DNA from: Heterotrichella gracilis | Lineage: Eukaryota > Sar > Xanthophyceae > Tribonematales > Xanthonemataceae | DNA length: 35,251 bases | NCBI GenBank assembly: GCA_032358255.1 | Contig: JAULBX010027661.1 | Coordinates: 1 to 35,251, forward strand | Reading direction: 5' to 3' | Part shown: positions 3,920 to 23,095 of the stretch, one piece after another | How positions within the stretch are numbered: the first letter of the stretch is position 1 | How the letters are laid out: each line of letters starts with the position of its first letter | Position numbers and translations under genes: made by a program | The notes under the pieces: generated by a model | The model's database searches: none | Told to the model about the DNA's origin: nothing | Seen by the model: the letters and a program-made list of their open reading frames with translations, nothing else

Positions 3920-4140
3920 GCTGGACATAGAAAGCTGTTGGCATTGCCGCAACACCTGCGCATAGTCCCGCATATGGCTTGCTCCCCAAAAACCCTGCCG
4001 CAGGGTTAACATCAACGGCGGCATCGCCCCAAAGTCTGCGCCCCAACATCCACCAAAACCCTAGCTTAGGTTTCACACGAACTGCGACATCGCCCCAAAG
4101 TGTGCCTCCCCACCATCCTCCAAAAACCCTAGCTAAGGGT
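3920..4140 (-). repeat. Tandem echoes of the terminal exon's 3' edge (about 66-85 bp period)
   Basis: Right after the stop codon of the 173-aa gene, degenerate copies of the last coding stretch (GGCACGCTGTGGGG... through the stop) recur at about 4069-4138 and 4004-4070, with a weaker copy at about 3920-4005. Two of the units end with AAAACCCTAGCT(T/A)AGG, a telomere-like CCCTA/TAGGG junction. In one minus frame the copies read as GTLWGDVAV and GRRLWGDAAV, compared with GTLWGRADF in the real exon. Confidence 0.7.
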
Positions 4141-6920
4141 TCACATGAAGGGGTACATGGGCATGAAGTCTGCGCGGCCCCACAGCGTGCCGTGCGTGGC
4201 CATTGCAAAGGCCAGGCCCAGCAGGGGGGTCATCATGAAAATGAGGTAGAGGACGGACAGGGTGTTCCAGCGGGAGCCCACGTACACATCGCCATCCCTG
4301 CATGCACCAAGCGGTGGGGTCAGAATGTGGAGTTTCAACAGCAAGAAACGTGATTTTTTCCCTCAGATTCCTTTCAAAGTGAGTCACGTTTGCGGGAACT
4401 GGTGTTTCAAGATGCACTCAGGATGTGGAACGGTGGCTAGCCACAAGCTTTGGCATGCAAGGGCATGCGTTCCAGCGGGACCCGATCTACACATCCTCAT
4501 CTCTGCATGCACCAAAGGGCGGGGTCAGGATGTGGGCCATCACAGGGTACCGTGCTTGCTGTGGGATAGGGGCATTACCAACCAGGAGGAGGGGTTAACT
4601 AGGAGATGGACCTTATCCTCTTGTCAACCATGCCCTACTTTTAAATATTACAGCCGCACATGAGTTTGGTGCATCATGGTGTGCATTGGTGCTATAAATA
4701 AAAGCAGCATTGGGTAAAGCCCTTGCTCAGGTTTCCTTGCAAGCGCGCGTGCAAAAGACCCTAGGCTAGGGTATTCCCTCACCAGTTGTTGGTGTGCAGG
4801 TGCTCCTCCCCGCTCTTCATCTTCTGCTCGCTGGCAAGGTAGGCTTCACGCAGTAGCCCTGGAGCGCAAACATGAACGGCATCTATACAAAGGTTCCATG
4901 CATTCCAGCTCGAAAGCAAGATAAGCAGTCGACCCCCTGTATCTATACATGTCGCGCAAGGGCAGGTCTGCCCTAACACTGCTTGTATCATGTCTGAATC
5001 TTGCGCACTTGTACCGATAATTATGCCAGTTCATAGGCAACAGTTCTCCATGCAGCAGGAGTAATCTTGTCCAACCACTATACGCTGGCCTAACACACCC
5101 TAGTGACCAATCCGAGCATGCAGAGCAGTGCCTGGTAAAGGGAAGGTACAGCACAGTAAGCCATTGCAGTGGATTGGATTTCTGGAGATGCATCCACAAT
5201 ATAATTACAATGGTCACGATATGTGCTCAGGACTCAGTGTCTTGACCACTGTGCGAGAGGCGCTTGTGTGCTGGGTTTCCAGTTGCAGATGAATGAAGGG
5301 TTTAGGAGACAGGGTTGGACAGCGCTGTGCTATGAAGGGTTGAGGGTTGGGTTTAGGGGTTTTCAGTTGCAGGTGCCGTGCCACGCACCCAGTTCCTCCC
5401 CGATGGTCTTCCCCCCCAGCAGGTGCGGGTGCTTCATCTGCTCCAGCTCCTTGCGGCTGAACCCCTTCTTCTGCACACCAATGATGGGCAGGGCAAGGTC
5501 CTCCTCCTCGTGAGCACGCACTGCAACCAATAATTGTACAGATTTAGAACTTCATTAAGCAGTGATGGGGTCTAGCCTCATGCTCCAAGGGACTTTGTAA
5601 ATTACTGCTGGAAGTAGTCAAGTGTAAAAGCAGCGCTGTGGGCCAAACCAGGTTTTGAATGATATCAAAAGAGCAAAATTCTGGTGTGGTGCACAGAGCA
5701 AGGTCCTCCTGCTCGTGAGCACACACTGCAACCAATATACGCATACATAAAATTCATATATAGCCCATATGGGAGGTGTTTAGAAGGGGTGCGTGGGGTT
5801 TAGCCTAGGCTTGGCGTTGCCCATGGGTGGCAGGTTTCACCTCGCGCTAGACAGGTGTGTGCCATAGTTCCTGGGGCTTACAGGAATGGAATGGTTTGCC
5901 TCACACAATGATGGGCAGCGCAAGGTCCACCTGCTTATGAGCACAGAGTGCAACCAGTCATGTGCAGTCTTTAAAAGCGGTGCGTGGGGTTTAGCCTTGG
6001 CTTGGGGTTGCTTATGGGTACCTTTGGTGGCAGGTTTCACCTCGCGCTAGGGATGTGTGCCCCCTACTTCCTGGGTATAGAAAGGTGCATAGTCTTGCTT
6101 CATGGTAGCAAGTGCCAATGTTCTGATGGTGTTACCGCAAACCCTAAACCCTAAACTGGCACACCACAGCCATGACTAAAGCTGCGCAAACTGCCTATAG
6201 CACCTGCGCACAGGGTGGTGTCAAGCGAACTACCAGAAAGGCACCACCATCGGCTCATTCATGAGGCAAAGGAAAATAGAGTGGGTCCTAGACGCCTTGA
6301 TACAGGCGGTGCAGGGTGGTGGCCACTGGCTGCAATGGTGCATGATCCACAAACCCTGCTGCATTGCTGCAGACATGCACTCCCCAACAGATGGCCACAT
6401 TAGTATCAGTAGTATTTTATATCCATCTGTGCATTCTGGACACACGTGAGGCTATCAGAAACGGTGTCGGACACGTTGAGGGCAGATTAGGCAGTTGCTT
6501 CCACAGGGTGCTAAGCTTCACCCACCTACAAGACTGCGGCGAGGCTTCTGGGGTTGGCTGCGGCGCTTGGTGGCCGCGACACGAGCAGGAGTCAGACTCA
6601 CTGCTGTAAGGGCGAACATTGTTGATATCCCCCACTTCAGTGGACCACTCCTTGAACGGCGGGAAGATCCTTGAAAGCGACAAATGTGTGGACAGGGTGA
6701 AGGTAAAGCAACCCCGTCACTTGGAAAACGTGGCGCTCAAAGCTGATATATTTGGTCAGTTTGTGGGAAAGGTTGTAGTTGCACAAAAGTAGATGAGCGT
6801 GCATATATACGTGACCACTTCCACCCTTCACCCTTCACTCCGACGGTGACGTGCATCTGACGTGGCTGGGCTCAAGCCTGCCCACTGCGTACAGCTCAAA
6901 GCAGTAGCAAAACCCATCAT
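4141..6920 (-). CDS. Unidentified 173-aa one-helix membrane protein, five exons, probable organelle targeting
   Basis: Exons on the minus strand are 6832-6920 (ATG at 6920), 6602-6669, 5389-5520, 4783-4858 and 4141-4297 (stop at 4141). All introns are GT-AG, phases agree, and the total is 522 nt. The ATG is the first after an in-frame stop. The N-terminus (MMGFATALSCTQWAGLSPAT, then RHRR) is rich in Ala, Ser, Thr and Arg, as in algal transit peptides. A charged middle follows (GFSRKELEQMKHPHLLGGK, then LASEQKMKSGEEHLHTNNW). Near the C-terminus GDVYVGSRWN precedes one clear membrane helix (LSVLYLIFMMTPLLGLAFAM) and the protein ends MPMYPFM. I do not recognise the family. A chloroplast or mitochondrial inner/thylakoid membrane subunit or assembly factor is an inference from layout only. 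The gene is divergent from the CRAL-TRIO gene. Its exons 3 and 5 have degenerate copies of their edges in adjacent DNA. Confidence 0.78.
4465..4530 (-). repeat. Echo of terminal exon 5' edge and acceptor in its upstream intron
   Basis: The sequence GCGTTCCAGCGGGA through CTGCATGCACCAAA repeats the start of the terminal exon and its acceptor (real copy at about 4262-4325), offset by 206 bp. The acceptor TGCATGCAG is intact, but the copy has an in-frame stop within a few codons (DEDV then TAG). Confidence 0.7.
5480..6075 (-). repeat. Triplicated exon-3 5' edge and adjoining tandem block
   Basis: The acceptor side of the third exon (real copy 5480-5530) recurs at 5691-5738 and 5907-5958 inside the upstream intron. 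The first echo keeps the acceptor TTGCAG and an open frame (CAHEQEDLAL against RAHEEEDLAL). The second has lost it (GCAG changed to GCAC). A linked block, GTGCGTGGGGTTTAGCCT through CACCTCGCGCTAG, occurs at about 5789-5876 and 5970-6075. The tandem period is about 180-215 bp. Confidence 0.75.
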
Positions 6921-7283
6921 TACACACTTTGAACTTCTCGGATAGGCTATTGCCTGTCATCCTGTTTCAGCTTGCTAACCCACAACACAATCTGCCCGGC
7001 ATTGACCGGCATGTTTTGCCCGGGAAACCAATCACCCAATCGACGCTGTCAGCACCCGGGATGCGGCTTTGAGAGACACATAACGCTTTGGTGTATGACA
7101 GTGGTGCAACTCTCGGCTAGACACCCTTTCAATGTCCCACGTGGAAGTGCACATCATGATGCAGCGGGGGGACTTGGGGATACAATGCCGGGGATGGTAA
7201 AATGGAAGGCTGCAGGTTTTTGAACGATATCCAAAATCGTCACCTGCGGGGCAGCGCCAACCAGCTTTAAAGGTTGCTGCGAA
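6921..7283. promoter_or_regulatory. Bidirectional promoter between the membrane-protein and CRAL-TRIO genes
   Basis: The two genes diverge with 363 bp between ATG 6920 (-) and the earliest possible start at 7284 (+), or 483 bp to the preferred start at 7404. A palindromic G-box, CCACGTGG, lies at 7137-7144, the class of site bound by plant bZIP and bHLH factors. No clear TATA box was seen for either direction. Shared regulation is an inference. Confidence 0.5.
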
Positions 7284-7403
7284 GTGCATGTTGCAACAGG
7301 ACTTCTAACCACTAGTACACCCTTAACGCCCTCCGCAACCCACAGCTTCACTTTCAAGCCTATTCCGGAACCGGGCCGTCCATGCCCACACGCTATTGAA
7401 AGC

Positions 7404-10400
7404 ATGGCTTCCTCAAGCAAGCAAACCGGTGGCGTTAGGCTCCGGCTGAGGTTTGGCCTACTGGGAGCAGAAACGAAGGTTGCTGTTGTGGAACAATGTT
7501 GCTCTACAGCAGCCCCAGAAGAGACCAGCGCCAGCGCACCCACAGACCAAACAGAACACCATGCCATGGCCAGCACCAGTAGCAGCAACGAGGAGCACAC
7601 CACAGACCAGGCGTTGCCGCCGCTGGCGGACGAGCTGTATCAGCGGTTACAGGCCAGTGGATGCTTGCAGCGGCTGGCCAGAACAGGGGAGGAGGTGGAC
7701 GCAAGGTTTCTGCGGCGGTGGCTGAGGGCTAGGAAGGAGGACGTCCTTGTGACTGCGGAAGCTATCATCCAGCATGCTCACTGGCGGGATGAGTTCCTGC
7801 CTACTGGGCGAATCGAGGAGGTGGGCTAACCCAGATCATGAGCAGCGTCCCTTTGTGCTTTTGGTGGGGCTTGGAGAACCCCGTGCATTGCCCGTTTCGG
7901 AAAGATATTGGCATGGCTTGCTATTGGCCCACCCACCCTTATCCAACAAACAAGATTGCAGATTGCAGCAGGAGTCTGCAGGGCAAGGGTTCATTGCCAC
8001 CTATTCAATGTCGCGGCTATGCCTTGTCTTGCCTTGCCCGTTATTTGCTGCTGGGTTTTCTGCACAGGAGAGCAACGGCCACCTGCATAAACAACGACAC
8101 ATACCCCATTCTTCACGGCACCATTCCTCGCCTTCCCAAACTCTGCAGTATAACCTGCTCTCCCCTAATACCCACTTCATCCTCTCCTGCAGTACGAGAT
8201 CCAGTCCGAGCTGGACGCCAACAAGGTCTTCCTGCAAGGCACCGACACAATGGGCCGGCCGGTCATCGTGATCCAAGCCCGGAACCACAACATGAACACC
8301 CGCAACTTTGAGGAGACCAAGAGGCTCATCTGCTACACGTTGGATAACGCCATAGCCGCTGCCGACCCTGACAAGGCCCCAGACGGCAAGATCTGCTGCA
8401 TCTTCGACTTGTCAGGTACCCACCTCACCCCCACATGCCCTGCCCCTACGACGCAACGCCCCTGACCCCACCTGATTGAACTCCTCAGGCAAAACCCAAC
8501 CTTTGAAGTTTCAGGTTGCAGAGGAGAACTAAAAATGTATAATGCGCTGTCTATCACCAGCACTTGCGCTGTCCAACCCATGCCAGCAAGCACTGTTACC
8601 CCGAACCCATGCCATTTGTTAAGAGCCGCGTACCAGGCCTATACATATACAGCAGCCAAGCCTGCGCAATTATGTGCCGGCTGGCTGTCTCACAAAGTTG
8701 CTGCAGCCTGTCTCTATCCCGCCTTGCCCGCGTAAGTGCTCGCCACTCAGTGCAAGCATACCATCCGCCGCGCCCTCCTTCCCCACCCCTCGCTCCCCCT
8801 CCAGACTGCCAGGAATCCACCTAAACCCACCACACACACCCCAACCCTTGCTTTTGTACCAAGCACTCTACTCCATAATGCTTGAACTTCCATCTCCTAC
8901 CCCGCTCCACCCGCGCACCATCACCACCGCCACATATCACGTACCGCCCTGCACCCCTTCCCTTGACTTTACCTACTCCCTCGCCCCCAGGCCTGGCCCT
9001 GCGCAACCTGGACGTGGCCGCCCTGCGCGCCATCTTCGACACCCTGCAGCAGCACTACCCGGAGCGCCTGGCGCAGCTGTGGTTTGTCAACGCTCCCCTC
9101 ATCTTCTGGGGCATCTGGAAGCTGGTAAGCCCCTTCATCCAGCCAGCCACCAGGGAGAAGCTGGCGTTCATCGCGCTGGGGGGGCGGGAGAACGCGCTGC
9201 GCGCCGCGGTGGGAGACCAGGTGGGTGGGGAACCCTAGGGTAGGGTTTATCGATGGCAGACTGGACCAGTCCCTGGGCATGCGAGTTTATTGGGATCAAC
9301 TTGGTGAGATGGCGGTGGTGGGAGGCAAAATCATGTGTTGCGGGTTTGGCGAGGGGCAAGTGGGGTGAGGGGCAGCCCGCCTGGAGATAGGGGTGTTAGC
9401 CTGGGGTAGCAGTTGTGCGGGGCGGGCAGTGTGCTGCTGGTGCCTTGCTAACTCAGCCACCTCCATCCTGAGCAATGGAATGTGGCGTTATTTCAGTACA
9501 TTTCTGTTTAAGTGAGTTTTAGGACGGGGCAAATTTCTCCCAAACCAACCTCCGGCACACTATGTGCATGCATTAAAATGACGATTCAGGTGCATTATCA
9601 GTGCGCTCCTGACACAGGTGCTCCCACGAGAGTATGGCGGCGCTGGCACCCTAGTGCCGCGGTGGCCCAGCGACGCTCCGCCGCCGATGTTAGAAAAAAT
9701 CCTATAAAACCTTGTAATCATCACAAGCAAATTCGCATAAAAAGTTGATAAGAGATCGCAAAACCCAGACAACACTGTGTTGTTGATTCTCCCATCCTCC
9801 ACCTTGCCACAGGTGCTCCCACGAGAGTACGGCGGCGCCTCTGCCCTTGTCCCCATCCAGCATGCGGTGGCCCAGCGGCGCACCGCCGCCGCCCCGCACC
9901 GCATCCGCGCCTCGGCCGCCGCCTGCCCGTCCTCCCACCCGCTGCCCCCCGACCCCTCGCGCATGCAGCGGCTGCGGGGGGCGGGCTCCGCAGTAACGCA
10001 CGCCATGACGCACGCGGCGGGGGCGGTGCTGCACTTCCGGCCCTGGCGGCATGGCTTTGGGGGCCATGGGGAGGGCGGGAGTGGGCTGGTGTCGGGGGGG
10101 AGAGGCGGGAGCCTGCGCCCCAGCGGGAGCCTGAGGGTCCGCCTGGGTCGGATGGCCAAGGGGGATTATGGCAGCTTTGATGATGTGCGGAGGGTGGTGC
10201 TGGGGATCCTCCTACCGGGGCTGCTTCTGCAGGTAAGGCTGGATAGGCATGCGCGGGAAATCGGGGGAGGCAAAGGTGCAATGGGGTATTGTGAAGGTGG
10301 CGGTCTTGGGTGTTGTCGCAGGTTCCGCATGGCTTTAATGCATTGTCAAAAATGCAGTTTTAAGAAATGCACTCCATAATTGCCGGATGCCCAGTTAGCC

Positions 10401-10547
10401 GCATGGACATTTTAAAGTGAAACTCAAAATTTAACTTAAAGATTGTGTTTTCTTTCTTGTATATAAATCAGAGGTAAATAAGCAAATGGGCTGCTGCTGC
10501 AGGTGCTGCTAATGTTGGCGCAGAAGATGGCAGTGGGGCCGCGCTGA
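7404..10547 (+). CDS. CRAL-TRIO (Sec14-like) lipid-transfer protein
   Basis: Exons are 7404-7820, 8193-8415, 8991-9220, 9813-10232 and 10503-10547 (TGA). Phases agree and the product is 444 aa. The ATG at 7404 has A at -3 and G at +4. An in-frame start at 7284 (484 aa) has a weak context, and another in-frame ATG lies at 7566. Exon 1 ends with the CRAL-TRIO N-terminal helix bundle (DARFLRRWLRARKEDVLVTA, then HWRDEFLP). Exons 2-4 carry the lipid-binding fold: GRPVIVIQARNHN, ICCIFDLSG, then LWFVNAPLIFWGIWKLVSPF and the LPREYGG segment that usually closes the domain. The Ser/Thr/Gln-rich N-terminus may be a linker or transit region. The C-terminus is Gly/Arg-rich and ends in a hydrophobic helix (VVLGILLPGLLLQVLLMLAQ), possibly a membrane anchor. 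Family members move phosphoinositides or other lipids between membranes; the ligand here is unknown. The intron before exon 4 contains a second, diverged copy of that exon's start. Confidence 0.88.
9618..9707 (+). repeat. Echo of CRAL-TRIO exon 4 start, possible alternative last exon
   Basis: The sequence after GACACAG at 9611-9617 repeats the first about 80 nt of exon 4 (9813 on), including GTGCTCCCACGAGAGTA and GCGGTGGCCCAGCG, with a short internal deletion. The acceptor is intact and phase is conserved. The frame reads VLPREYGGAGTLVPRWP and stays open for 29 codons before TAA at 9705-9707. Splicing to it would make a form that ends just after the CRAL-TRIO fold and lacks the hydrophobic tail. 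Confidence 0.75.
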
Positions 10548-11780
10548 TGCACAGGGGGGGAGGGGGGTTCAGGGGATGCTGGCACAGGGGAGGGAATTAT
10601 TGGGGTGCTGGCACTGGGGGGGAAAAGGGGGAGGGATCGAGCGCTGCATCGCGCTGTACATGTGATTGCAGTGGCATCCAATACAAGGGAAGGATAAGGG
10701 AAACCACCATTACGTGGCGTATTGCCTTGCTGTGTTTTATGTGTGTTTTGGGTTGTAGGTCGGCAAGTGGGAGGGATTGATTGTACATTTGCGATTTTTA
10801 TGCGCGCACAATTTGCGCGGAGCTCTGTTATTTACGGTTTGGCATTGCCCCTGGGAATGATAGTTGACCTACTGCCCCGCCAATTTTCAAGTACAAGTTC
10901 AACCGAATTTTCGCTAGGTTTTCTGCTGAAAATTTCTACCTGGTGCCGCTTTACCACATATCAAACACCTCAGGAATTTGGGGTGATTCCTCGCCACAAA
11001 GGGCATTGCTGTGTTGCATGCAAAATTTTCATGGTACAGGCCTCAAGGGTGTGTGCTTTTGTGTCTGGCATATGCAAATGCTGTTGCAGCATTTTCCTCA
11101 ACGTATGGCTACCGCTCGTGCTGTTTTCTGGGAGAGTGAGTCAGGGAGGGCGCTTGGTGTGTGCGCACGCACTAGCTGCCAGCGGCGCATGCGACTGTTT
11201 TGGGTATCGATACCTACCTAGTGGTGCCTGCACTTGACTGGAGCGACTGGTGCACAGATAGGATGGGTGCTGCCGCCGGGTTTCAATAAGCACCTTGCCC
11301 AGCACATGCCACGCTTTTAGTTAGTAGCTGATGAGTAGGTTTTGAAATTTATGCTATGGTACATAGAGCTTGATCTTAGAATGGTGTAAATGAGTTGTTG
11401 GGTCAATAGATCAATTGTATTAGGTGAGAGAATGTCTTCAACGTACAAGCTTTACTGAGACAGCTTGCAAGACTCATCAAGTTGACACATGGTAGTGTGC
11501 TAGTCTGAGATCGATGAGATGTTTGAACTTCACGTGGCGCAATTGGTTAACCATGTCCCTTCTAAAATCGTTATAAGTAAATAGTCACATCCAGTTTGGA
11601 CTCTTGACACACAGCTACTGTATTGACAATGTAGCATTATTACAAATGTGTCCCAAATGTGCCCCTGAAGGGCACACAAGGCAATAAGCCGATGACGGCT
11701 GGGAATGCCTTTTGTTTGTTTGTAACTTTATCGGCAATAAACTTGGCTAACCGTCAAATTTGCTGTCGTCATCAAGGTGA
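10548..11780 (+). other. 3' UTR and flank of the CRAL-TRIO gene
   Basis: No further gene is recognised. A 171-codon frame at 10722-11237 has no domain and unusual composition, and it lies where a long algal 3' UTR is expected. The first + strand TGTAA is at 11395-11399, about 850 nt after the stop. Confidence 0.5.
11395..11399 (+). terminator. TGTAA poly(A) signal candidate of the CRAL-TRIO gene
   Basis: This is the first TGTAA on the + strand after the stop codon at 10547. Green-algal poly(A) signals usually have this sequence. Confidence 0.4.
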
Positions 11781-12082
11781 TCATGTGCTGGCAACAATAT
11801 TGGCCGAATTGGCGGGCCTCAAGGTCGGACCTGACGGGCTTGCCAATGGTTGCAATGCGTGCGCCGCGGCAACCCTACATATACTTGACGTGTCAGGAGA
11901 GCAAAGGTGCCACTGCCATGGTCCGGACTGTAATGCACTGGCCAACACTGCAGTGGCTGACTCAAGAGCTTGCGCAGTGCGGCAGCCCCCCATTTTTTTT
12001 TTGGTATTCATTTGCATCCATGAGACTCTATGATACCATGCACCCTCTTACACGCATTTCAGTTCAAGTACAGGAGACAGAT

Positions 12083-13270
12083 TCAATCCGACGGCTGCTG
12101 AACAGGCAAAGTCACATGGCATAGCATTTGTAGCCATATATGGCATCTTTGTTCAAGTTCCGAACAGGCATGAGTCATGGCATCTGTCACAATCCTTGCA
12201 AGCATAGTTACAGCTGCCTCCCAGCAGCCCATCCCGCTGACCAGCGCCTGAATCATCGCAGGCAGAGCCCAGCTGCCCTTGCTGCCGCTGTGCGCTGGGC
12301 GATAGGCTGGTTGCATGTTATGACGCCAGGTTTGCTAGTGCCATATGACTTTGCGGGCCTCTTCTGCTGCACGGGTCTTGTGAAAACCCTTCTGGAGGGT
12401 TCTGGCCCCTGTCCATCAGCAGGCTGAGAGCAGGTACCGCCCCAGCATCCAGCCAGGCAACCCTGTGCTCCTTGCAGCCGCATGAAATGCTGCTGCAGAG
12501 GCAAGGCAAGGCCCCTGGTGGCTGTTGCGCAGGTGGCGGATCAGACATGGTATGCCTCCAGTGGACACAATGGCATCTGCGCATCTGCATGCAATACTGT
12601 GGCGCCTGCCTTTGGACACATTTGCCGCTGCCTCAATGTATCGCACAAGGTCCACTGCATGCTCCTGCAGTCTCCCACCTGGATGAATCTGTGCCAGAAG
12701 CTGTACATGAGCTGTCAGCCCACCAGCTATCAAAGCGGTTTTTGCCCTGCACATCACCATTTGTATCAAGTGCCAGCTGACCCAACACGCGCGCAGCAGT
12801 TGCCTGAAATGTGCTGCTGCTGCTGCCCAGCAGGGTTACCAGGGATGTGATCACTGGTATAACCCCGTCAGCCACCACATGACCCATGTAGTGCGCACAT
12901 TCTGTAACAATGTGGGAAACTGTCCAGGCAGCTGGCCCCTTCAATATTCTTCATTGGAGCAGAGTAGGCGGACCAGCACTGGCAAAATCCCCAGACCCTC
13001 TGCGGCATCCCTGTGCCGCATTGGCAGGCAGATGAGGCCCAGAGAAACCGTCACATTGATGATGCATTGTGCATTGTCGCCTTGAAGTAGCCGAACAAAC
13101 ACCGGCAATGCCCCAGCAGCAACAATCGCATCACTGTAATCGCCCCTGCTGGGCACTGCACATATCATGAAGAGCATAGAGGCCACCTCATGGCCGAGCT
13201 GATCAAAGCTTGTACTGCGGCTGCCCAACAGAGTCACCAGCTTGGCCTCATGATCCCCTCACGCATGATG
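12083..13270 (-). pseudogene. Armadillo-repeat protein pseudogene, intronless, several frame changes
   Basis: Minus-strand frames give successive armadillo-type repeats: VTLLGSRSTSFDQLGHEVAS and GALPVFVRLLQGDNAQ (13237-12941), then VADGVIPVITSLVTLLGS and TFQATAARVLGQLALDTNG (12944 to about 12757), then KTALIAGGLTAHVQLLAQ and STGGIPCLIRHLRN (about 12757-12490), then WLDAGAVPALSLLMDRGQ (to about 12400), and finally ALPAMIQALVSGMGCWEAA (12316-12083). Consecutive parts lie in different frames, with no GT-AG pair to join them. At least four frame changes are therefore needed, one near 12755 at a G/A homopolymer. Weak similarity continues at 12017-11781 (SSICRVAAAHALQPLA). The other genes here have many introns, so lack of introns suggests a processed copy or a decayed single-exon gene. 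Armadillo arrays bind protein partners; no function is claimed. Sequencing indels are an alternative explanation. Confidence 0.7.
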
Positions 13271-15180
13271 GGCTTTCTTCAGGGGCACCGCTCCAGGAGG
13301 CCTCGCCCAAAGTGCTCGCTGCGCACCCAATCAGCCATTGCCTTTGCAGCTGCAATCTGACATGCATGGTCTCCTTCCTCCATGCTCTGCCTGAGCATAG
13401 GATGAATATTTGCACCCTTGCAACTTCACCTGGACACAAATCACATGTGCTGCAGCAATCCTCACAGTTCGGTTGCCCACTGACATTGCAGGTGGCAGGT
13501 GTGGTGAAGAGCAAGAGGTTGAAGCATTTGATCAATCCGATGGGCATCTGCATGGCGCAGCGGCACCGGTTGCATGATGCTGGAGACTATTCAGCACCAC
13601 GCGAGCCACCTGATGCTGACACTAGTGGGGCACTATTCTGCTAGTCACTATTCCACCGTGTCTGTTACGCATGGCCCTCAGCGCTCTGGCACTCTGTAGT
13701 GGCCATTGCTGGCGCCATGCGTCAAGCAGGGCGGGAGGCAATCAAGCTCTCTTGATATCTGGTGTGCATGACCATGGACAATGCTGTCACCTCTTTGCAT
13801 TCAATTACACCTCCTGTCCAGCAGACTGACCGGGAATAGTAATGCACCGGCTGTAGCTGTTACAAGGGCATAGCTGTGGGTGTCCAAACCAGCTTCATGC
13901 GTCCGGTCGAGTTGGTTCTTTTATTACTTGGGCCACTGCACATGCCGCATGGCCACACAGCACTGCGTAGCTCAGACACAATGGTGGCAATGTCCAGGGA
14001 GGAAATAGCAGGCTTGCCAGCGCCTGGAAGCCACACAGCAGTTTTTTGTTTTTCCAAAAATATTTTATTATCTGTACATTTATTGACAGATGGGCACACA
14101 ACTTTCATCCTATCTCCTACAAGCATCAGCGGGTTAGGTTGCTCGTTGCTTTCCAAAAAGTGATAAGCAGGGGTCTTCAGGTCTCATCCTTGGGAACCTT
14201 ACTCGGAGGGCACCACTGTCAGGTACGTGCCATATGCATGCATGCATGGCAAAGTCACCTATGAAACGCTGTTGGCGAAACGGCCAAGGTGTGGCGCGCC
14301 TTTGTAACCCCAGTAAGCTTGGTCTGCTTGCTATCAGTTCATCTGATACGGTGGCAGGTGTAGTGCCCAGTCCTATCAGGTTAGCCACGTCTAGTGATCA
14401 GGTGACCTGCATTGAAAGCACTTGCAATTTGCCTGTGTGAAGGTCACTGGTCTCTGAGACGGGCGTGGTTTCTAATTTGAACTAATGGGCAGTTGTCACA
14501 CAGACGAAAAGGAGTAGTAGTGCAACTGCTTGCACTGTTCTCCATGTTCTTCCACCGATAGGAAACATCGACATGCTCACCTGTAACAGTTCTGAAGTGG
14601 CACGAAGAAGGGGCTTGGGCTGAATGCAAGGATGCGTTATGTGTCTGCCGTTGGTATGCTGAGCGTGGAGTGCCACTGAGCCAGGCTCACTCTGGCCTTC
14701 AAAACTCGCCCGCAGGCCTGTACAATCAACTTTTTGCTTTGTTGGCAGAAGCTGGTGCTGCTCTATCAACCATGTGACGTTTTTGAAGCTCGTCTCGTCA
14801 CTGAACCAGGTTCAAACTGCACCCAACAGCAAAAAATCCCCAATATAATTATCAAGGCTTTTTAGAGAAATACTAATTGGAGCTATTCAATGTTGGAAAG
14901 ACCAAATTAGTCATTAGCATGCCTCAATAAGGGATCATCCATATGAGGCTCAAGCTGATCAACAGATGATTCTATGGAGGTGCTAGTTGCATCATGTATC
15001 ATAGAGGCTCTTTCATCAACAATCCAAAGCGGGTGAACGATGCAGACTGTATTTTGAGTTCAATTCAAGGCACCATTGAACTTCAGGATGTATTCGACAG
15101 TTACAGCACCAATAGAGCAACATATTCAACGTCTGCAGTTCTGGTCGCTAAAACAAGGTCACATTCAACGCGACTCACAA
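13271..15180. other. Region without recognisable gene between the ARM pseudogene and lipase unit 1
   Basis: Short frames on both strands show no motif I can name. The minus frame at 14101-13895 has a weak ARM-like segment (AACAVAQVIKEPTRPD) and may be part of the same decayed locus. The minus frame at 14769-14482 is open for 95 codons but is not recognised. The rest is AT-rich without clear promoters. Confidence 0.4.
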
Positions 15181-15207
15181 TGCGCACACATGCAGCTCAA
15201 GCCGCTT

Positions 15208-15228
15208 AACCCTAAACCCTAAACCCTA
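15208..15228. repeat. Interstitial telomere-like repeat (CCCTAAA)n, about 2.7 units
   Basis: Perfect consecutive CCCTAAA units lie at the 3' edge of duplication unit 1. Similar short tracts occur at about 6139, 17470-17500, 19035 (opposite strand), 21001-21016 (opposite strand), 27630 and 27807. They are short and on both strands, so this is not a chromosome end. Confidence 0.8.
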
Positions 15229-15404
15229 CGCATGCAGCTCAAGAAGCAGCAGCGCAGTGTGGCAAATCAACAGCTGCAGGCAAGGACACCAGCAACAGCA
15301 CAACATCTATCGCAGCATTAAAGCGCAGCATTGCGCACCATCTAGGCACAATTATCAGCAAGGGGTGTAGGGGGGCATACAGAAAGAGATAAATATTGGT
15401 AATG

Positions 15405-15545
15405 ATCATAAAATCTGCCTGTGCAAATATGGGTTTTAATCATCTACCCTATCATAAAATCAGCCTGTGCACATAAGGGGTTTAATCGTCTACCCTATCA
15501 TAAATTCTGCCTGTGCAAACATGGGTTTAATCATCTATCCTATCA
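15405..15545. repeat. Triplicated about 57-bp repeat in lipase 1 3' flank
   Basis: Three copies of a unit built on ATCATAAA, CTGCCTGTGCAAA and GGGTTTAATCATCTACCCT lie in tandem. Unit 2 has the matching sequence once (about 26825-26880), so the expansion is specific to unit 1 or was lost in unit 2. Confidence 0.8.
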
Positions 15546-15624
15546 TAAACACAAAACAAGAATAGTAATGCACTTGATATTATCGCCATCTACTATGATC
15601 CTCTACAAACTACGGCAAGGGGGG

Positions 15625-15629
15625 TTACA
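15625..15629 (-). terminator. TGTAA poly(A) signal candidate of lipase gene 1
   Basis: Reverse-strand TGTAA lies about 445 nt after the stop codon at 16073. Confidence 0.4.
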
Positions 15630-15698
15630 CCACTACATTAGCCCAGGGCCTGCTATTCTTGACCATTAAATCAGCCCTAATATCCCTGTATGCTTTTG

Positions 15699-15873
15699 AC
15701 CCAGAGCAACAAGCCTCCTCACACGGGCTGTGACTTGCCCTCGCCCTCGTCCCTGCTGGCTGGCATGGAATCTTGCTGCCACCCCAGGGATTGACCCTCA
15801 GGTGACATTCCCGTAAATTGACCCAGAGCAACATGTCCCTCACACAGGCTGTGACTCGCCCTCGCCCTCCCCC
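15699..15873 (-). repeat. Duplicated 3' UTR segment of lipase gene 1
   Basis: The stretch CCAGAGCAACA through GCTGTGAC(T)TGCCCTCGCCCTC occurs at 15699-15750 and again at 15822-15873, an offset of about 123 bp. Confidence 0.7.
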
Positions 15874-15957
15874 TTGAACCTTGGCGCTGGCACAGACGTG
15901 ACCAGGGGTGTTGGGAAAAAAACCAGGAACCCTTCCGGGTTTATTACACCCCCTGGC

Positions 15958-16134
15958 ATGACCCAGGCCCCTACACCACACTCCACGTGCCCCCTTCCCC
16001 AATTGCCTCAAACTCAATTTGCGCAGGGGCTAGGGTTTTAGGGTTTCCAGAATCACACAGTGACCCAGGCCCCTACACCACGCGCCATGTGCCCCCTTCC
16101 CCAACCGGCTCAAACTCGATCTGCGCAGGGGCGG
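15958..16134 (-). repeat. Echo of the lipase 1 terminal exon 3' edge, including the stop
   Basis: The real end of the gene (16061-16134) is repeated at about 15958-16032. The copy encodes APAQIEFEAIGEGGTWSVV and a stop, against APAQIEFEPVGEGGTWRVV in the exon. The junction between copies is TAGGGTTTTAGGGTTT, a telomere-like tract. Confidence 0.8.
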
Positions 16135-19100
16135 CAGGCACAGCGGGAGCGTACACCCGTTTCCCCCCCTTGGCGGTGCTTCCATACCGCCCCTTGTCCC
16201 ACAGCTCGGGCTGCCACCATGCTGTGGGGGTGGGTGGGTGGCCGGGGAGGGGGTCATTTACAGCATCCGCTGACTTGTTGAGGAGGATGGGGGTGCGGGG
16301 GATGTCGCCCAGGCGGGCCACCAAGTGCAGGTAGAGCTGCGGGAACAGGGAGGGAATGGTGTGGGCGTTTGGGTATTGACAACAAACTCCAATATTGTGA
16401 AGAAGTAAAATCATTACATGATTTGTTGAGCAGGATGGGGCTGCGGGAGATGTCGCCCAGGCAGGCCACCAAGTGCAGGCAGAGGTGCGAAAACACGGGG
16501 AATGGTGTGAGCAATAAGTAACTAAAAAAAGAGCTCAACTTGAGCCAAAATATTGTGAAGAACTACAGTCTAAGTACAGTCAATGCGATTTGTTGAGCAG
16601 GATGGGGGATGTGCTCTAGGCGAGCAACCATGCAGGTAGAGCTGCACGGGAACGGGGAGGGAATGGTGTGAGCATTTGGGTAATTAACAACCTAATTCAA
16701 AGCCAAAAAGCATCATGTGGTTTGTTGAGCAAGATGGGGCTGCGGAAATTGTTGGCTGAGCAAGCAAGCCTGTGCAGGTAGAGCTGCAGAAATTAGGTAA
16801 ATTAGGAGGACATGGGGTAAGCACCAGGAGGACGTCATTTATCAGTCATTGATAATAGTACAACGATCAACTACTAATTAACGAATAATCAGAGGAGTTC
16901 AAACATTGTGAAGAATTCAAATCATCATGTGAGCGCCGTGGAGGAGTGTGCATGTCATGAGATGTTGTGTTGCACAGAATTGCACCGTGAGCAAGGCTGG
17001 CTACGGGGTTGGTGGTGATGGGCAGGCTTGCAAATACACTGGTCCAACGCACCTCGCGGTTGTGGAGGGAGCCACATCAATTCCCAGCCACATCAATGCC
17101 ATTGAATTCACAGATAAATCCATTTTTTTGTGAACAGCTTGGGTGTGTGATGCACTACTTCAAAAGGGGTGCAGCAATTTCGCCAATGTGCATGTAGGCG
17201 GGAGGAGGGCCTTTGTGGGTTGCGTGCTGACGCTGTGCCTAACACAAAAACAGTTGCAGGACGCTCATGCTTTGTATGCACACCTCGCAGTTGTGCAGGG
17301 AGCCAATCAACTCCCCAGCCACGGCTGCCAGGTCCTGCTGGGACTCAATCGTGCTGGTGCTTCCCCGCACAAAGGTAGGGCACCAACCGGGGATGTCGGC
17401 TGAGGGGTCAGTGGCTGAGGGCTCCTCCCAGGAGTTGAGCAGCAGCTGTGGGGCAAAACAGAAGGAGTTATGAACCCTAAACATTAAACCCTAAACAGCT
17501 GAGGGATCAGTGCTGAGGGTTCCGCCCAGGATTTGAGCAGCAGCTGTGGGGCAAAACAGAAGGAGTTAAAACCTTAAACCCTAAACAGCTGAGGGATTCT
17601 CCCAAGAGTCAAGCAGCGGCTGTGGGGCAAACAGAAAGAATTGAAAAACATTTTGAACCCTGGGCAAATACATGTGTGCCGCATGAAAACCTGTATAGCA
17701 CATTCTGGTGGTTGTGTGCGCTGTTTTGTGGTGGCAGTGCTATTACCGTACAATGCACAATGCGGCGGGCAACCATTGACGTGTGTAATGACGATTGGTA
17801 TATAGGGGTTAATACTTGTTGTCACCACGAATTGCATGTGCACTGCATGCACACAAGTGTTCTATACGAATTTGCAACGCACCTCATACCCCGAGTGAAC
17901 AAACACATGCACCAGCACTGCTGCCTGCAGCTTCCGGAGGCTTGTGGCCAGCTTTTTTGCTTGCTCGTCATATCCCCCCTGGGGGATGAGCCCGTGCTTG
18001 CCACCTGGCAGCGCTCCGGCCTCCCGGTCCAACACCAAAACCCTAATAGGTTCCAGGAAGCTCCTTGCCGATCTGGCTGTGGTCGAGTTTGCCACGGAGG
18101 CATCCAGCAACAGGCGGGTGTTTTTCCCGACTGCTGCCAGCAGGTCTTGCGGCAGTTTAGACAGGCTTGCAAGGTATGTGCTATACCAAGGCTGGGTTGG
18201 GGGGGTGGCGGTGGCCGCGACGGGGATGAATTTCCCGGGTACTCCCAGGAAGCGCAGGAGTTGGGGTTTCAGCTGCGCCTCCACGCTCTGCTGCAGCTGC
18301 TCCTTTTGCTGCAGAAAGTGCAATGCAAGTTGTTTGATAATGTGCTGTGTATGAGCAGTATGGACAATTATGCCACTACTTGTCAATTTTGGTACCTCCA
18401 AAGGGTACTGGCAATACTAGTAATGCAAGCAATACCAGCCATATTACCAACTACTGCACATAATCTCTTGCCTGCCATTTGACATACTGCACATTCTATA
18501 CCAAGTCTATAATCACCATCAGACTTTGATCATGATTACAGTCCAGACAAGCAGTGCAACCCACCATCAGGACTGTCATCACACGATCTGTAATCACCAT
18601 CAGGATTATAATTTCAAACAGTGCAATCATCATCAGGACTGTAATCACCTCATCGCCGATTCTGAGAACCCCCTGGGATGCCGCCTCGCTGGGTTTGGGT
18701 TTCTTTGCACCAAAGCCAATCCCCGCGCCCAGCACGCCGATGAGCACGCCCAATGCTTTGAGCACATTGTTCTTGTTCAGCAGAGCTGCACAAGGGGAGT
18801 ACTACTAAGCACATTGAGCAGTACTGCATGCGATAATATTCTAAATTGGACTACGTTACAACACCTGTCAAACTCCCCTTTTCTCACATTTGCTAAAAGC
18901 GGTTTGCAATTAAATGCTTGGCATTATGAAAATTATGAAGGGAGTAGGCACATTGCAATGAGCACATGGCATGAGCACAAAAGGAGTAGGAAAATGGCGG
19001 CAACCGTGTTTCTTCATAATCCGCCTGGATTTTGCATCAGGGTTTAGGGTTTACCGCTGCCCCTGCCTAATGCAAGCACGCACGCAGCTCAGCCACCACC

Positions 19101-22100
19101 TTGTTGCAAACCCTACACTAGGGTCCGGAACCCAGGCTTCCGGGACAAACCTGGCACCTTTGGGATGACGAGCGGTAGCTTGAGGACCACCTCGTTGCAA
19201 AATTTACACTAGGGTCCGGAACTGTTTTTTTTGGGACGCACCTGGCACCATTGGGATGACAAGCGGTAGCTTGGGGACCACGCCATTGCAAATCCTACCA
19301 GAAACCCGACACTAGGTTCTAGGGTTTTGGGAGGCACCTGGCACCATCGGGATGACGGGCGGCAGCTTGGGGACCACGTCATTCTGGTTGACGATGCGCA
19401 CCACGGTGAGGTTGGGGAGCTCCTGGACCACCTGCATGTAGCGGGTGTTGCCCACGCGTGGAGCTGCAAACGCGTAGCCGTGCACGCTGGCGGCACCCCT
19501 GGCGGCAGCCTGCGCAGCCACACAGGCATGATTTGTCAAGGGGTTTGGGGACTGGAGTGAGGGAGACATCCGACTGGGAAATATGTTCAGTCAATACTGC
19601 AGTGCTAGGACAGGGCTGGCTGGCGGAAGGCATGTAGGACAGACTGCTATTGTGGGTGTACTGCATGTACGTCTTAAAAATGCAGAGAAACGGTGAGGCT
19701 CTATTACTAACCCTCGCCAGCTGCCGCCACTACCCTATTCTGACCCTCACACCACGTGTTTAGGGTAGAAATAGTTGAGGGTTTAGGGTATTTCTTACCC
19801 ACTCGGGCTTGTTCTGGAGCTGGTATGCCACATAAAAGGAGGTGAGGGAGGTGAGACCACCTCCCAAGCTGTGGCCTGTCACACTCACTGTCCCCAGCTG
19901 GGTCCCAGAAGCGATGATGTCACTGATGATGGCGTCAATGAGCTGCAACGGGGATGACGTCAGCAAGAAACTTTGCTAGACATTCCAGCCCAAACATAAC
20001 CCCACTATACGTGCAGTTTGAATGCAAACAAGCTAGACATGGAAACCCGCCTGCGATTTGAACCCTGTTGGTCTGTGCAAAAGCATTGATGGCTGTGTGT
20101 TTGCTCCTCGCGACATTAAAATTCAATGCTGTTGGTGGGCCCATTCTTTCTGAAACCCCTTTCATCCCCTGCAATGCAGACTTTCCATGCAACATCTCAA
20201 TGGGGCTCATGCCAAGTGTGCCAGTTCTTTCTGACACCCCTTTCCTCCCCTGCAATGCAGGCTTTAAACTTTAGTTCTCATCACCCACCTCAATGGGGCT
20301 CATGCCATCCAGCTCCCGCACTGTGTAGTGCAGCCCCTCCTCTCCTTCTGGGTAACCATATGATTTCCCTTGCACGTCAGCCAACTCCCTCGCCAGCCCC
20401 AGATTGGCGCGGTTGTTGTTGGCATTGGTGGGATCCAAGGTGGGTGTGCTAGTCAACATGGACCAGAAGCCTTCATGCACGCGCACCCCCTTGGACTGCA
20501 AGTCGATTATTGTCTTCCCCTTGGTCGAGTACACAAGGGGGATGGCCACACCATCGGCGTCCGTCAGCCACTCAAAGTTCCTCCCAGTTCCGCGCCATGC
20601 AATGACCACATCCTGAGGCTCACCTGCACCTGTAGATGTGGCGGCAGAAAGGGCGGTTTGTACGAGTCATTATGTATTGTATGAGTCATTATTGCATGTA
20701 CCCTGATGGAACTGGGTGCCAACCTTTGTCAAGGTGCGGCCATCATCTCTTAACTTGCTTTGCCTTAATGCTTCAATGCATTGCATGCACATACACTGCC
20801 TTTCAATGCGTCCATGCCATCCTTCATCGTGTAGTGTGCACACCACGATGTTGGTCAGCGGAAACGTTTTGGTAGGGTTTGTATTGGCGCAGCTGTTGAT
20901 TGGCAGCAGGACATGCCCTGCCATGCTTTGCACCTGGCATCATTGAATGGTGTGATGGGCGTTGCAGCAGGGGGAATGCCAACCAATCAAGGGCACATGG
21001 TTTAGGGTTTAGGGTCTAGGTTTTGTGTAGGGGTTTAAAATCAGCTTGGCTGGCAGGAGAAAGGGATTTGTATAGTGTTTGGGAAGAGACCCCGGCAGGA
21101 AGCAAAACGACTCTGGCTATGGTAGCAAGGGTGTGCGCAGGGAATTAACGGTCACCTCTGGGTGGCAGCAGCACATATCCCTGCCAGGCTGTGTCACTGA
21201 TGCTTTCAGTGGTGAACGCCCCTGCCTCGGCAGACTGCTGAGTCAGCGCACGCCAACCTGCAGCGGTAAAAACGAATAAATAATAAAAATATGCACAGTT
21301 ACGCAGCCTTTCCTTGAACAAGCGCGTTGGTTGAGGAAGAGGTGTTATCAGGTGAAGGCAAAAAAGAAGGCAATGCCTTCCTGTCCACTATGTCCACTAC
21401 CATACCTGCAGCGGTGTACAAGGGGAAGAGCGCAGCCTTCTTCCCGTCTTTGAAGAACCTGTGCAAGGGGTAACAAATCATTGTCTTGTTATGCTGCACA
21501 CGAATTCAAGGCAGCTGGTATATTAACCTCTGTCTACAATATAACAGAAATCACATTTCAAATATCAGAAAGTATATGGCAAAAGAGCCCCGGGCGGAAT
21601 GGGTTTCCAAACTAGGGACCTGTGCCCGAAAACCCTACGGAAACCCTCCTACCACTCACAGCTCGCGAGCTCCGCTGGCTGACCCGGGCAGGGTGTTGTC
21701 CAGCAGTGTGTCCACGCTGTCCCAGCGCCAGTTGCCCGCCACAGACTTGCGGGTGTTGCCTGGGGCGACGCCTGTGCCCTGTTCCAGGTTGGCATTATAC
21801 ACAAAGTTGTCGTAGGTCACCTGAGCCAGCTCGCCATACTTGAGCACGTCTTCCACGGTGGTGACAACATCTGGTGCAGGGGGGAAAGACTTTCTGGTAA
21901 GCAAAGGGGTTTAGGGGACCCCAGCTGAGGAATTGGGGTGCAGCTACACGTACAACAAGGGTTTTGCAGAACCCTCGAGGGTTTTGGATGCGCAGTCAAT
22001 TTAAGGTTGTCACACTTCAACTGGTGCAGGGGGGAAAGCACAGGCCATCAGAGGGACAGTGCGTGATACCACGTAGGTATGGCGGCACGCGGGCACTTCA

Positions 22101-23095
22101 GTGGAGGGTTTTGCACAACCCTACTCGAGGGTTTTGGGGACAGGAGATCTCACTGGATTCTTTTGCAGTACTGCGTGCGCTGACTGCGCGGCAAGCAAAT
22201 ATGTGGGCACCAAAGGTGGAAAGCTGGTGTCATGGGGTCACGGGCCTGCTTTGCACACCTTCACCCGTTGCTGTGGCAGTTACCGGCACCCTTGGGGAAT
22301 CCCTCTGCTGCACAACTTCATCGGTTGCTGTAGTTGCTGTGGCTCTCGGTACCACTGGGGAAACCCTCCCAGGCCCCGGGCGCTGCGGAGGCTGGTGGCG
22401 CCGCATTGCCACCTGGTGGCGCCGCACTCCCGCCTGGCTGTAGCTACGGCTGCTGGGGAAGCTTCTTGAGATGTTGGTGGGTGTGACAGCAGCTGCAACA
22501 CCGTTGGAAGTATTACTGAGGTAGGGCAAGTAGAGGGCCAGCTAGCTCACGTTAACTTTGGGGATAATCAAAGCAGGGATATTAGGAGGGCATCAAGGTT
22601 TCGGGCAGTACGCCAGACCAGAGGGCACTCGGGCTTTGGATATGGTACCAGGGTGATAAGGCATGAGGGTCGTTGCGTCAGTGGACAGAGTCCACAGTGC
22701 ACAAGCTGTGAAACCACTGCACTTTATTGTGGAAAAAAGCTTGTGGTACTCGCCACGTCAAAACTATACCAGGGGTTGGTGGGTAGCTTTCCAGCATGCA
22801 CCGGTAGGTACCTAGCTAGCCCGTTCGGCTGTGGGATAGCTCACCGCAGTACTTGCAGGCCCACGTTCACTGGCGCGCTCTCAAGCTAACACTATAAAAG
22901 CCACAACGTTAAGTCAAAGTATGAAAGCGTTGTGGGAGCGTATCCATGATCAAAACAGCGCTGGGCACGGTTGCGCTGGAACCGCATGCGTGTGGATATG
23001 GTCCGGAATATTACCGCGTGGCACGCTAAGAGAGGTAGCTGGTTGCTCCTCAACTACCCATCAAGTAGTTTAGGCCTACCTGCAGTAACCTGCAT
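16073..23095 (-). CDS. Class 3 lipase / phospholipase A1-like protein, copy 1
   Basis: Eleven minus-strand exons: 23080-23095, 21660-21870, 21406-21458, 21156-21257, 20289-20623, 19799-19942, 19338-19509, 18649-18785, 17883-18308, 17284-17445 and 16073-16336. Phases agree and the sum is 2022 nt (673 aa). The start exon is only 16 nt (MQVTA); it is supported by the same arrangement in copy 2. Family marks in order: VEDVLKYGELAQVTYDNF, NWRWDSVD, DVVIAWRGTGRNFEW, the nucleophile elbow VTGHSLGGG (Ser about 264), VHGYAFAAPRVGN, VRIVNQNDVVP (Asp about 331) and LHNCELYLHLV (His about 583), then SPILL/LLNKSADAV-type and AWWQPELW. This order matches plant DAD1-like PLA1 lipases, which hydrolyse acyl esters of glycerolipids; substrate and location are unknown. 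Exon 9 is 76 aa longer than its counterpart in copy 2. The acceptor of exon 5 is a tandem choice (20623 or 20629). Many of its exons have edge echoes in adjacent introns. Confidence 0.88.
16275..16810 (-). repeat. Four tandem copies of lipase 1 exon 11 5' edge with acceptor
   Basis: The real exon start and acceptor (16275-16345) are followed upstream by copies at about 16421-16510, 16590-16680 and 16718-16800, with periods of about 130-170 bp. Copy 2 preserves the frame (LCLHLVACLGDISRSPILL) but has lost the acceptor (CAG changed to CAC). Copy 3 keeps the acceptor but is frameshifted. Copy 4 keeps acceptor and frame (LYLHRLACSANNFRSPILL) and soon meets a stop. Lipase gene 2 has only the real copy. 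Confidence 0.82.
17042..17100 (-). repeat. Echo of lipase 1 exon 10 3' edge with donor
   Basis: GCACCTCGCGGTTGTGGAGG through CAGCCACATC repeats the end of exon 10 and its donor (real copy 17278-17330). The donor in the copy is GTGCGT, which is intact. Confidence 0.7.
17401..17640 (-). repeat. Three tandem copies of lipase 1 exon 10 5' edge with acceptor
   Basis: The real exon start (17401-17460) recurs at about 17501-17562 and 17591-17640. Both echoes keep the acceptor GCCCCACAG. Read from it they give LLLKSWAEPSALIPQLFRV-stop and PLLDSWENPSAV-stop. Both stop codons lie in the telomere-like TTTAGGGTTTAA junction between copies. Confidence 0.82.
18510..18660 (-). repeat. Minisatellite-like copies of the lipase 1 exon 8 donor region
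   Basis: The donor side of exon 8 (GAG then GTGATTACAG) is followed by further copies of the motif AATCACCATCAGGA(C/T)T (+ strand) at about 18590-18606 and 18508-18525, plus shorter pieces, with irregular spacing of 40-80 bp. Confidence 0.6.
19085..19385 (-). repeat. Tandem echoes of lipase 1 exon 7 3' edge with donor
   Basis: The end of exon 7 and its donor (real copy 19331-19385) recur at about 19236-19293 and 19146-19203, with a fainter trace at about 19085-19130. Periods are about 91-96 bp. The donors of the copies are GTGCGT and GTTTGT, both usable. Junctions carry ACCCTACACTAGGGTCC or TTCTAGGGTTTT. Lipase gene 2 has only a weak trace at about 29870-29945. Confidence 0.8.
20190..20310 (-). 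repeat. Echo of lipase 1 exon 5 3' edge
   Basis: GGCATGAGCCCCATTGAG (end of exon 5, at 20289-20306) recurs at 20196-20213, a 93-bp offset. The shared flank GCAGGGGA(G/T)GAAAGGGG and GTCAGAAAGAA also repeats. The donor is lost in the copy (GAG then AT). Confidence 0.8.
21258..21405 (-). other. Intron specific to lipase gene 1, flanked by a 12-bp direct repeat
   Basis: This 148-nt intron splits the exon that is continuous in lipase gene 2 (32340-32491). The sequence ACCGCTGCAGGT occurs exactly at both boundaries, so one AG|GT target appears to supply both the donor and the acceptor. This is the pattern expected when an intron is gained by insertion with target duplication. Confidence 0.8.
21871..22140 (-). 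repeat. Copies in lipase 1 intron 1: exon 2 acceptor and TTTTGGGA-type telomere-like dyads
   Basis: The exon 2 acceptor tract CTTTCCCCCCTGCACCAG (21871-21888) recurs at 22021-22038. Linked dyads, GGGTTTTGCAGAACCCTCGAG (20-21 nt scale) near 21960 and a related AACCCT/AGGGTT palindrome near 22110-22135, also repeat. Lipase gene 2 has one related dyad near 32995-33020. The remainder of this long intron has no recognised coding content. Confidence 0.6.

Follow-up and report, generated by a model that had tools for sequence, protein, structure and literature searches.

The analysed window is the entire contig C514 (JAULBX010027661.1; 35,251 bp) of the genome assembly of the xanthophycean alga Heterotrichella gracilis (GCA_032358255.1; 68.5 Mb in 903 contigs). 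The window contains a small membrane-protein gene, a CRAL-TRIO gene and two lipase genes arranged in tandem. The present work deals with local duplications in which exon edges of three of these genes, each with its splice site or stop codon, recur in degenerate form within the adjoining intron or 3' flank. The genes were delimited using an intron–exon model self-trained on the window and on stretches of contigs C178 and C288, in which 347 exons and 307 introns were predicted. The signals of the trained model are the donor CAG/GT and the acceptor TGCAG/ (the slash marks the splice site), and the median length of the 307 predicted introns is 340 bp. The three predicted exons of the membrane-protein gene join in frame to a stop codon; no Pfam match was found for the predicted product, and its name was taken from an earlier note on this DNA, in agreement with a hydrophobic stretch judged by eye. 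The nine exons of lipase 1, when joined, form an open frame that ends with TAG. The CRAL-TRIO protein is closest to metagenomic proteins and to proteins of the trebouxiophyte green algae Myrmecia, Trebouxia, Parachlorella and Chlorella.

Local duplications were called by self-alignment with a score cut of 24 for clusters; at the same cut, no matches were obtained in one first-order shuffle of each of three sources (the window, C178 and C288). The window contains 15 clusters, and nine of them are located at exon edges (Table 1). The earlier note had claimed about ten copied exon edges in three genes, and its copies were recovered; a tenth edge, donor 20289 of lipase 1, lies just below the cut, since the edge part of its match scores 20. 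In seven of the nine clusters the edge is crossed with 10 bp or more on either side, and the other two include less intron. The remaining six clusters are not counted as exon-edge clusters: two are intergenic, and the other four, among them one beside donor 20289, lie in introns only. The intron segment 5769-5875, adjoining the second copy of acceptor 5520, is itself repeated at 5960-6075, and the spacer of the lipase-1 stop edge (16031-16060) contains two telomere-type units. Two local duplications were also found in lipase 2 by window self-alignment, neither at an exon edge; lipase 1 carries copies at several edges.

Table 1. Genes of the window and exon edges with local copies (positions in bp from the first letter of the contig)
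Feature	Position	Strand	Description	Basis
Small membrane-protein gene	4141-4297, 4783-4858, 5389-5520	-	Three predicted exons	Gene model
Stop-codon edge, membrane-protein gene	3983-4173	-	Last exon 4141-4297; degenerate tandem copies into 3' flank, period about 66 bp	Self-alignment
Acceptor edge 4297/4298, source	4264-4330	-	About 34 bp of exon and 33 bp of intron	
Acceptor edge 4297, copy	4469-4535	-	84% identical, 205 bp away	
Acceptor edge 5520, source	5482-5532	-	Exon 5389-5520	
Acceptor edge 5520, copy 1	5687-5737	-	88% identical	
Acceptor edge 5520, copy 2	5909-5956	-		
CRAL-TRIO gene	7404-7820, 8193-8415, 8991-9220, 9813-10232, from 10503	+	Exons; the last begins at 10503	Gene model
CRAL-TRIO exon 4 acceptor, copy	9610-9686	+	76% identical, within intron 3	
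CRAL-TRIO exon 4 acceptor 9813, source	9805-9891	+	Exon 9813-10232	
Lipase 1, class-3 lipase	16073-21870	-	Extent in the model	Pfam Lipase_3
Lipase-1 stop-codon edge, copy	15959-16030	-	89% identical, in 3' flank	
Lipase-1 stop-codon edge, source	16061-16132	-	Last exon 16073-16336	
Lipase-1 acceptor 16336, source	16271-16366	-		
Lipase-1 acceptor 16336, copies	16419-16792	-	Three degenerate copies: 16419-16512, about 16604-16680, 16709-16792	
Lipase-1 donor 17284, copy	17050-17091	-	81% identical	
Lipase-1 donor 17284, source	17281-17322	-	Exon 17284-17445	
Lipase-1 acceptor 17445 with copies	17399-17642	-	Tandem copies at 17498-17597 and 17588-17642; junction with telomere-type repeats	
Lipase-1 donor 19338 with copies	19095-19383	-	Two tandem copies (about 19095-19185, 19186-19286), period about 91 bp	
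Lipase-1 donor 20289	20135-20307	-	22-bp copy 20193-20214 beside intron duplication 20135-20184/20216-20265	
Lipase 2, tandem paralogue, class-3-lipase-like	about 27056-32940			

Outside the window, 200 kb of C178, 50 kb of C288 and one 10-kb stretch from each of the contigs C24 and C354 were sampled. These contigs were matches of family searches (CRAL-TRIO, protein kinase), and the stretches were picked without regard to duplications. The window, C178 and C288 together form the 285-kb set, and the addition of C24 and C354 gives five sources; the examined share is about 0.45% of one genome. Copied edges, which the earlier note had described in three genes of the window, are present there but are not peculiar to them: they recur on C178, C288 and C354, and all three clusters of the C354 stretch cross exon edges by position. 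Self-alignment of the 10-kb C24 stretch gave no local duplication.

In the 285-kb set, 53 exon-derived blocks were obtained when the best match per cluster was taken: 24 at donors, 19 at acceptors, four at stop codons, one at a start codon and five in exon interiors. The edge is thus included in 48 of the 53, while random blocks of the same length gave 4883 interior per 7768 edge. The blocks are 28-305 bp long, and the copied exon part is 16-88 bp with a median of about 44 bp (n = 51). The spacing covers a broader range than the 65-210 bp of the earlier note, namely 52-374 bp with a median of about 106 bp (smallest value per cluster, 84 clusters). All exon-edge copies found in the 285 kb are direct; among 28 inverted matches, 27 are self-palindromes, and the remaining one lies off exons. 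Copies close to the far exon are few (3/51), two of them abutting it and the third within 20 bp. When any match in the five sources was counted, copies were found at 26 of 307 donors and 23 of 315 acceptors, and 44 of 325 sampled introns contained a copy. The median length of the copy-bearing introns is 450 bp vs. 320 bp for the others. An assembly artefact is an unlikely source of the copies, since the identity of exon-derived pairs ranges from about 68 to 100%, as expected for a spread of ages. In the region C288:30044-33200, five clusters within about 3 kb each have a spacing of 184-196 bp between copies, resembling a nucleosome repeat; the spacing in a sixth is 104 bp.

To evaluate the edge share, the 84 clusters of the 285-kb set were compared with a circular-shift null. 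It was found that 43 clusters span an exon edge vs. 17.7 expected (standard deviation 3.2), and 14 vs. 8.4 are exon-derived with little intron. Intron-only clusters (14 vs. 27.6), intergenic clusters (4 vs. 17.7) and exon repeats (8 vs. 12.0) are below expectation, and mixed non-coding clusters number 1 vs. 0.6. With one best match per cluster, the five sources gave 56 exon-derived, 16 intron and 5 intergenic clusters and 10 exon repeats. The exon share in gene space is therefore 0.78, compared with 0.29 under the null and 0.45 under a null with doubled detectability (p = 1.4e-8). With the window removed, 48 of 59 gene-space clusters are exon-derived vs. about 46% under the double-detectability null (p = 2.2e-8), and C178 alone gives 32 of 41 (p = 1.6e-5). 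The excess persists at score cuts of 30 and 40, among pairs that are 85% or more identical (27/34 pooled) or 90% or more identical (10/13, p = 0.012, all sources pooled), and with weak exons removed (51/75 exon-derived vs. 0.33 under the null). In the narrowest subset, C178 alone with the 90% threshold, the excess is not significant (4/7, p = 0.15). Intergenic duplications are rarer than expected across the five sources (5 vs. about 18). Per base, duplications cover 1.9% of intergenic DNA and 6.8% of introns; in exons, the cover is 9.5-10.7% within 30 bp of either end and 4-6% at depths of 60-150 bp.

Random tandem duplications would often span edges, because introns are short, damage to exons is selected against and exon-anchored pairs decay more slowly. 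A forward simulation was therefore performed with 6000 random tandem duplications of the observed spacings, neutral decay and selection against exon damage, assuming equal mutation of intron DNA and copies. Among the 1888 detected duplications, 619 involved exons, 825 were in introns and 444 were intergenic, which corresponds to 43% exon in gene space (619/1444). The observed value for the 285-kb set is 57 of 71 gene-space clusters. The edge excess thus outlasts the obvious biases of selection and slower decay. The comparison of edges with random positions, which the earlier note had suggested as its own test, revealed enrichment in sequence not chosen for duplications and at every score cut tried. 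The edge share is above that predicted from opportunity, selection and decay for ordinary random intron minisatellites or tandem duplications.

Exon-versus-copy mismatches at the first, second and third codon positions were 107/888, 97/887 and 184/878 (12.0, 10.9 and 21.0%). Equal rates at positions 1 and 2 with about double the rate at position 3 are the pattern that free drift of the copy combined with silent drift of the exon would give. The mismatch rate at positions 1 and 2 of exon–copy pairs (about 11%) was lower than that of intron–intron pairs (17%). Among indels, 25 of 33 involve a single base, counting pairs in which either copy is exonic, with exon repeats included. The copies thus drift as non-coding DNA, without coding constraint. 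Part of some copies was labelled exonic by the gene predictor, and exon-edge copies can in general be taken for exons by such programs.

Words of the TTTAGGG type are the commonest intron 7-mers, and at least one of the hexamers was found in 238 of 303 introns. The density of the motif in the first 50 bp after donors is 13-19 per kb on both strands, and in the last 50 bp before acceptors it is 15-16 per kb on the C strand only. The G strand drops to 0.4 per kb in the last 25 bp before acceptors, where its TAG would be a premature acceptor; the background on each strand is 0.8 per kb for exons and 3.0 per kb for intergenic DNA. The same peaks, although lower, were found in 238 introns of at least 150 bp without a detected duplication; the concentration of telomere-type sequence is therefore a general feature of intron ends. 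Near acceptors the CCCTAA strand is almost exclusive, and it would also supply a branch-point-like CTAA and avoid a premature AG. Examples of intron-end tracts in the window are located at 17471-17497, 16031-16046 and 21001-21020. A related motif, the telo-box, is reported not to be enriched in introns of Arabidopsis and rice in the part of PMC3022908 used here.

The same motif is associated with the duplications. It is present in 29 of 57 exon-side junction 30-mers of the copies vs. 12.1% of random intron 30-mers, with the orientation toward the copy being G in 21, C in seven and both in one. Duplications without exon carry it at the junction in 8 of 19 cases. Spacers of edge pairs contain the motif in 16 of 35 cases vs. 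9.5 (standard deviation 2.4) in random intron windows, and it lies within 60 bp of 19 of 26 copy-bearing donors vs. 74 of 281 others.

The genome has telomeres of this type: contigs C70 and C140 start with TTTAGGG-type telomeres. It also encodes a telomerase RNA-binding domain. Exact four-unit telomere hits number 209 genome-wide (overlapping hits counted), some of which are possibly contig-end telomeres. On the contigs of known length the hits are interior, with exact (CCCTAAA)4 runs at C24:83707-83734, C69:51482-51509 and C178:231420-231447. In addition, palindromic joins of telomere-type units, AACCCTA...TAGGGTT, the reverse of the order in a telomere end fusion, recur in introns and flanks of the window (4124-4142, 9231-9250, 19108-19125, 24646-24663 and 25551-25620). 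The words TGCATGC, GCATGCA and ATGCATG are also among the commonest intron 7-mers of C178, C288 and the window, with 117, 106 and 93 counts.

The reading that we favour, with about an even chance of being correct, is that the copies are scars of small local tandem-type duplications produced by error-prone repair of breaks in or beside introns. A DNA break would occur in or beside an intron, near the end of an exon, and a polymerase or telomerase would fill in or lengthen its ends, at times with telomere-type units. Rejoining would then give a direct duplication of the exon border, often with a non-aligning, telomere-rich spacer. Duplications that interrupt exons would be lost by selection. Those spanning an edge would do no harm, since the exon keeps its original splice site beside it, and would persist; the second copy would become intron and drift. 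The direct orientation, the low number of exon-interior copies, the absence of coding constraint, the edge excess over two nulls and the association with the motif are observed. A break is the presumed initiating lesion. Telomere-type tracts at intron ends may cause or accompany such breaks through telomerase addition, CST–Pol-alpha fill-in or stalling at G-rich tracts, and may account for the edge hits in excess of the neutral expectation. A stronger version is possible but doubtful: the intron-end repeats of this algal lineage would make edges recurrent break sites at which telomerase or CST–Pol-alpha keeps duplicating edges into introns, so that introns would grow from their own borders and more than one in ten would contain duplicate splice sites.

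Several results weigh against the repair-scar reading or against parts of it. The ratio of aligned length to spacing has a median of 0.58 in edge pairs vs. 1.0 in simulated simple tandem duplications (in non-edge pairs it is 0.59). Only 6 of 32 spacers resemble the flank predicted by a pure tandem event at p < 0.05, although all 32 combined give p = 8e-4. A spacer or filler step is therefore needed in the model; a pure simple tandem duplication fails on the ratio of length to spacing and mostly on spacer homology. The motif drops to background by about 60 bp from the junction, partly because the bins reach the exon, and its link with acceptors is weak (11/23 vs. 81/292, p = 0.055). It is present in both units of 19 duplications, in neither unit of 20, at the junction only in seven and at the far end only in five. 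The motif may therefore be part of the duplicated unit instead of filler, and these unit counts do not distinguish pure telomeric filler from a motif within the unit. Breakpoints placed at telomere motifs, in either direction, predict 31% edge in gene space vs. about 80% observed, so motif placement alone does not explain edge targeting and was rejected as its sole cause. The greater length of copy-bearing introns speaks for the repair-scar reading, but it may be an effect of the duplications or a matter of opportunity, longer introns having more room. Mobile elements or introners were also considered and rejected as the source of the spacers, and two window spacers, one of them the 138-bp spacer 4331-4468, matched only themselves in a genome-wide search. 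In the 285-kb sample, two non-edge spacers match 21 and 9 places, and the rest match 1-3, self included.

The main rival for the edge excess is residual detection bias. According to this explanation there is no edge specificity, and the pattern arises from random tandem duplications, selection against exon damage and easier detection of a pair with an unchanged exon copy than of two drifting intron copies. Both selection and slower decay act in the observed direction, the mismatch rates fit one drifting partner in exon–copy pairs and two in intron–intron pairs, and intron-only duplications do occur (14 of 84 clusters). However, both forces are already contained in the simulation (43%) and in the factor-two null (45%), the observed share is 78-81%, and the excess remains in the pooled high-identity subsets, even if not significantly in C178 at 90%. 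Intergenic duplications, moreover, are rarer and not commoner than expected. We consider this explanation unlikely on balance, though the most serious of the alternatives. Templated capture is less probable still; here, an intron break would be filled by distant copying of a nearby edge through synthesis-dependent strand annealing or polymerase-theta patches, and the spacer would be native and the echo new. The short aligned blocks and the spacers that are mostly unlike the flanks are consistent with it, and repair-mediated local duplications are described for vertebrates in the part of PMC2671141 drawn on here. Such a process should copy exon interiors and both orientations, but interiors account for 5 of 53 blocks and no inverted edge copy, and hence no inverted templated patch at an exon edge, was found in the 285 kb.

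Copying could also be coupled to splicing or transcription, with breaks at R-loops or polymerase pauses located at exon–intron junctions or with repair from nascent pre-mRNA. The enrichment in genes over intergenic DNA and the involvement of both donors (24) and acceptors (19) are in line with this, but stop (4/53) and start (1/53) edges, which are not marked by splicing, are hit as well; we regard such coupling as improbable. Very improbable is the explanation that the copies are functional alternative exon ends under selection, akin to the ready-made alternative splice sites proposed in the earlier note. Among 70 aligned cases, 57 have kept their splice dinucleotides vs. 70% expected from the general identity, which is a marginal difference (p = 0.049), and in a few pairs most differences fall on third positions, such as C178 48504 (0, 0, 5). 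The codon-position pattern and the single-base indels are nevertheless of the non-coding type, and working alternative exons were rejected on this evidence. In addition, the protein of a relative with 70% identity runs through the CRAL-TRIO exon 3/4 junction as annotated, without the copy. The proposal of ready-made splice sites was thus not supported.

Taken together, the phenomenon looks like an intron-lengthening repair scar and not a working splicing device. It bears on two open questions, the origin of intron DNA and the lengthening of introns: a measurable share of introns contains mappable duplicates of their own exon border, and about half of the junctions bear telomere-type sequence. 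This gives a testable hypothesis in a small algal genome, namely that introns grow by error-prone repair at exon–intron borders with the involvement of telomeric machinery.

The copies were compared with known systems, each taken from the part of the cited source that describes it. They are similar to the fill-in duplications formed by CST-guided Pol-alpha-primase at breaks with 3' overhangs (PMC8355091), which are direct, adjacent and short. The complex responsible for this fill-in is that of telomeres, and about half of the junctions here have tracts of the telomere type. However, that system concerns induced breaks in human and mouse cells, no exon-edge concentration is described in the part of the paper used, and many copies of H. 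gracilis are separated by spacers. The direct orientation is shared, but the unit length does not equal the spacing, so the copies were not classified as pure fill-in duplications. Mammalian interstitial telomeric insertions at double-strand breaks (PMC2246262) also have telomeric units at repair junctions, and junction units above background were found here too. Flank duplication accompanies 6 of 130 rodent and 4 of 25 primate insertions in that account; in H. gracilis, unlike there, the units are short, degenerate and concentrated towards the ends of introns, and exon edges form part of the duplicated flanks.

Another similar case is that of the neointrons and internal repeats of Daphnia (PMC4202315), where recurrent staggered breaks are given as the cause of direct repeats in introns and introns tend to become longer. 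The exon-derived repeats described there measure 4-12 bp and occupy the distal end of a newly gained intron, whereas in H. gracilis an exon edge together with about 16-88 bp of the exon is copied inside introns. Intron gain by duplication of exon segments with AGGT (PMC3443670; for Drosophila, PMC2891723) likewise involves tandem duplication near splice sites. In that route, as these sources outline it, the exon tail and intron head match the intron tail and the head of the next exon, whereas here existing introns grow. An AGGT-type exchange was not seen by eye in those C178 and C288 alignments that were inspected, and intron birth by AGGT duplication or by a long target-site duplication was rejected on this ground and because of the few far-end copies. 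Proximal-DNA capture in vertebrates (PMC2671141) gives local break-repair duplications that can include splice sites, but in that account 4 of 824 donor segments are of the partial exon/intron kind, and an oppositely oriented exon copy is described. Direct repeats around exon–intron borders are also the subject of PMC11782384; those repeats, as presented there, are 4-30 bp long and pair the two ends of one intron, whereas in the blocks of H. gracilis one edge is matched by a site within the intron or in the 3' flank. Nothing relevant was found in the consulted passages of PMC8226300 and PMC8537989. The earlier note knew of no named system with this pattern. The ingredients do have names, since small break-repair tandem duplications and telomeric repeats at breaks are already known, while a concentration at exon edges at such frequency was not found in the parts consulted of the open-access literature searched (subscription papers were outside its scope).

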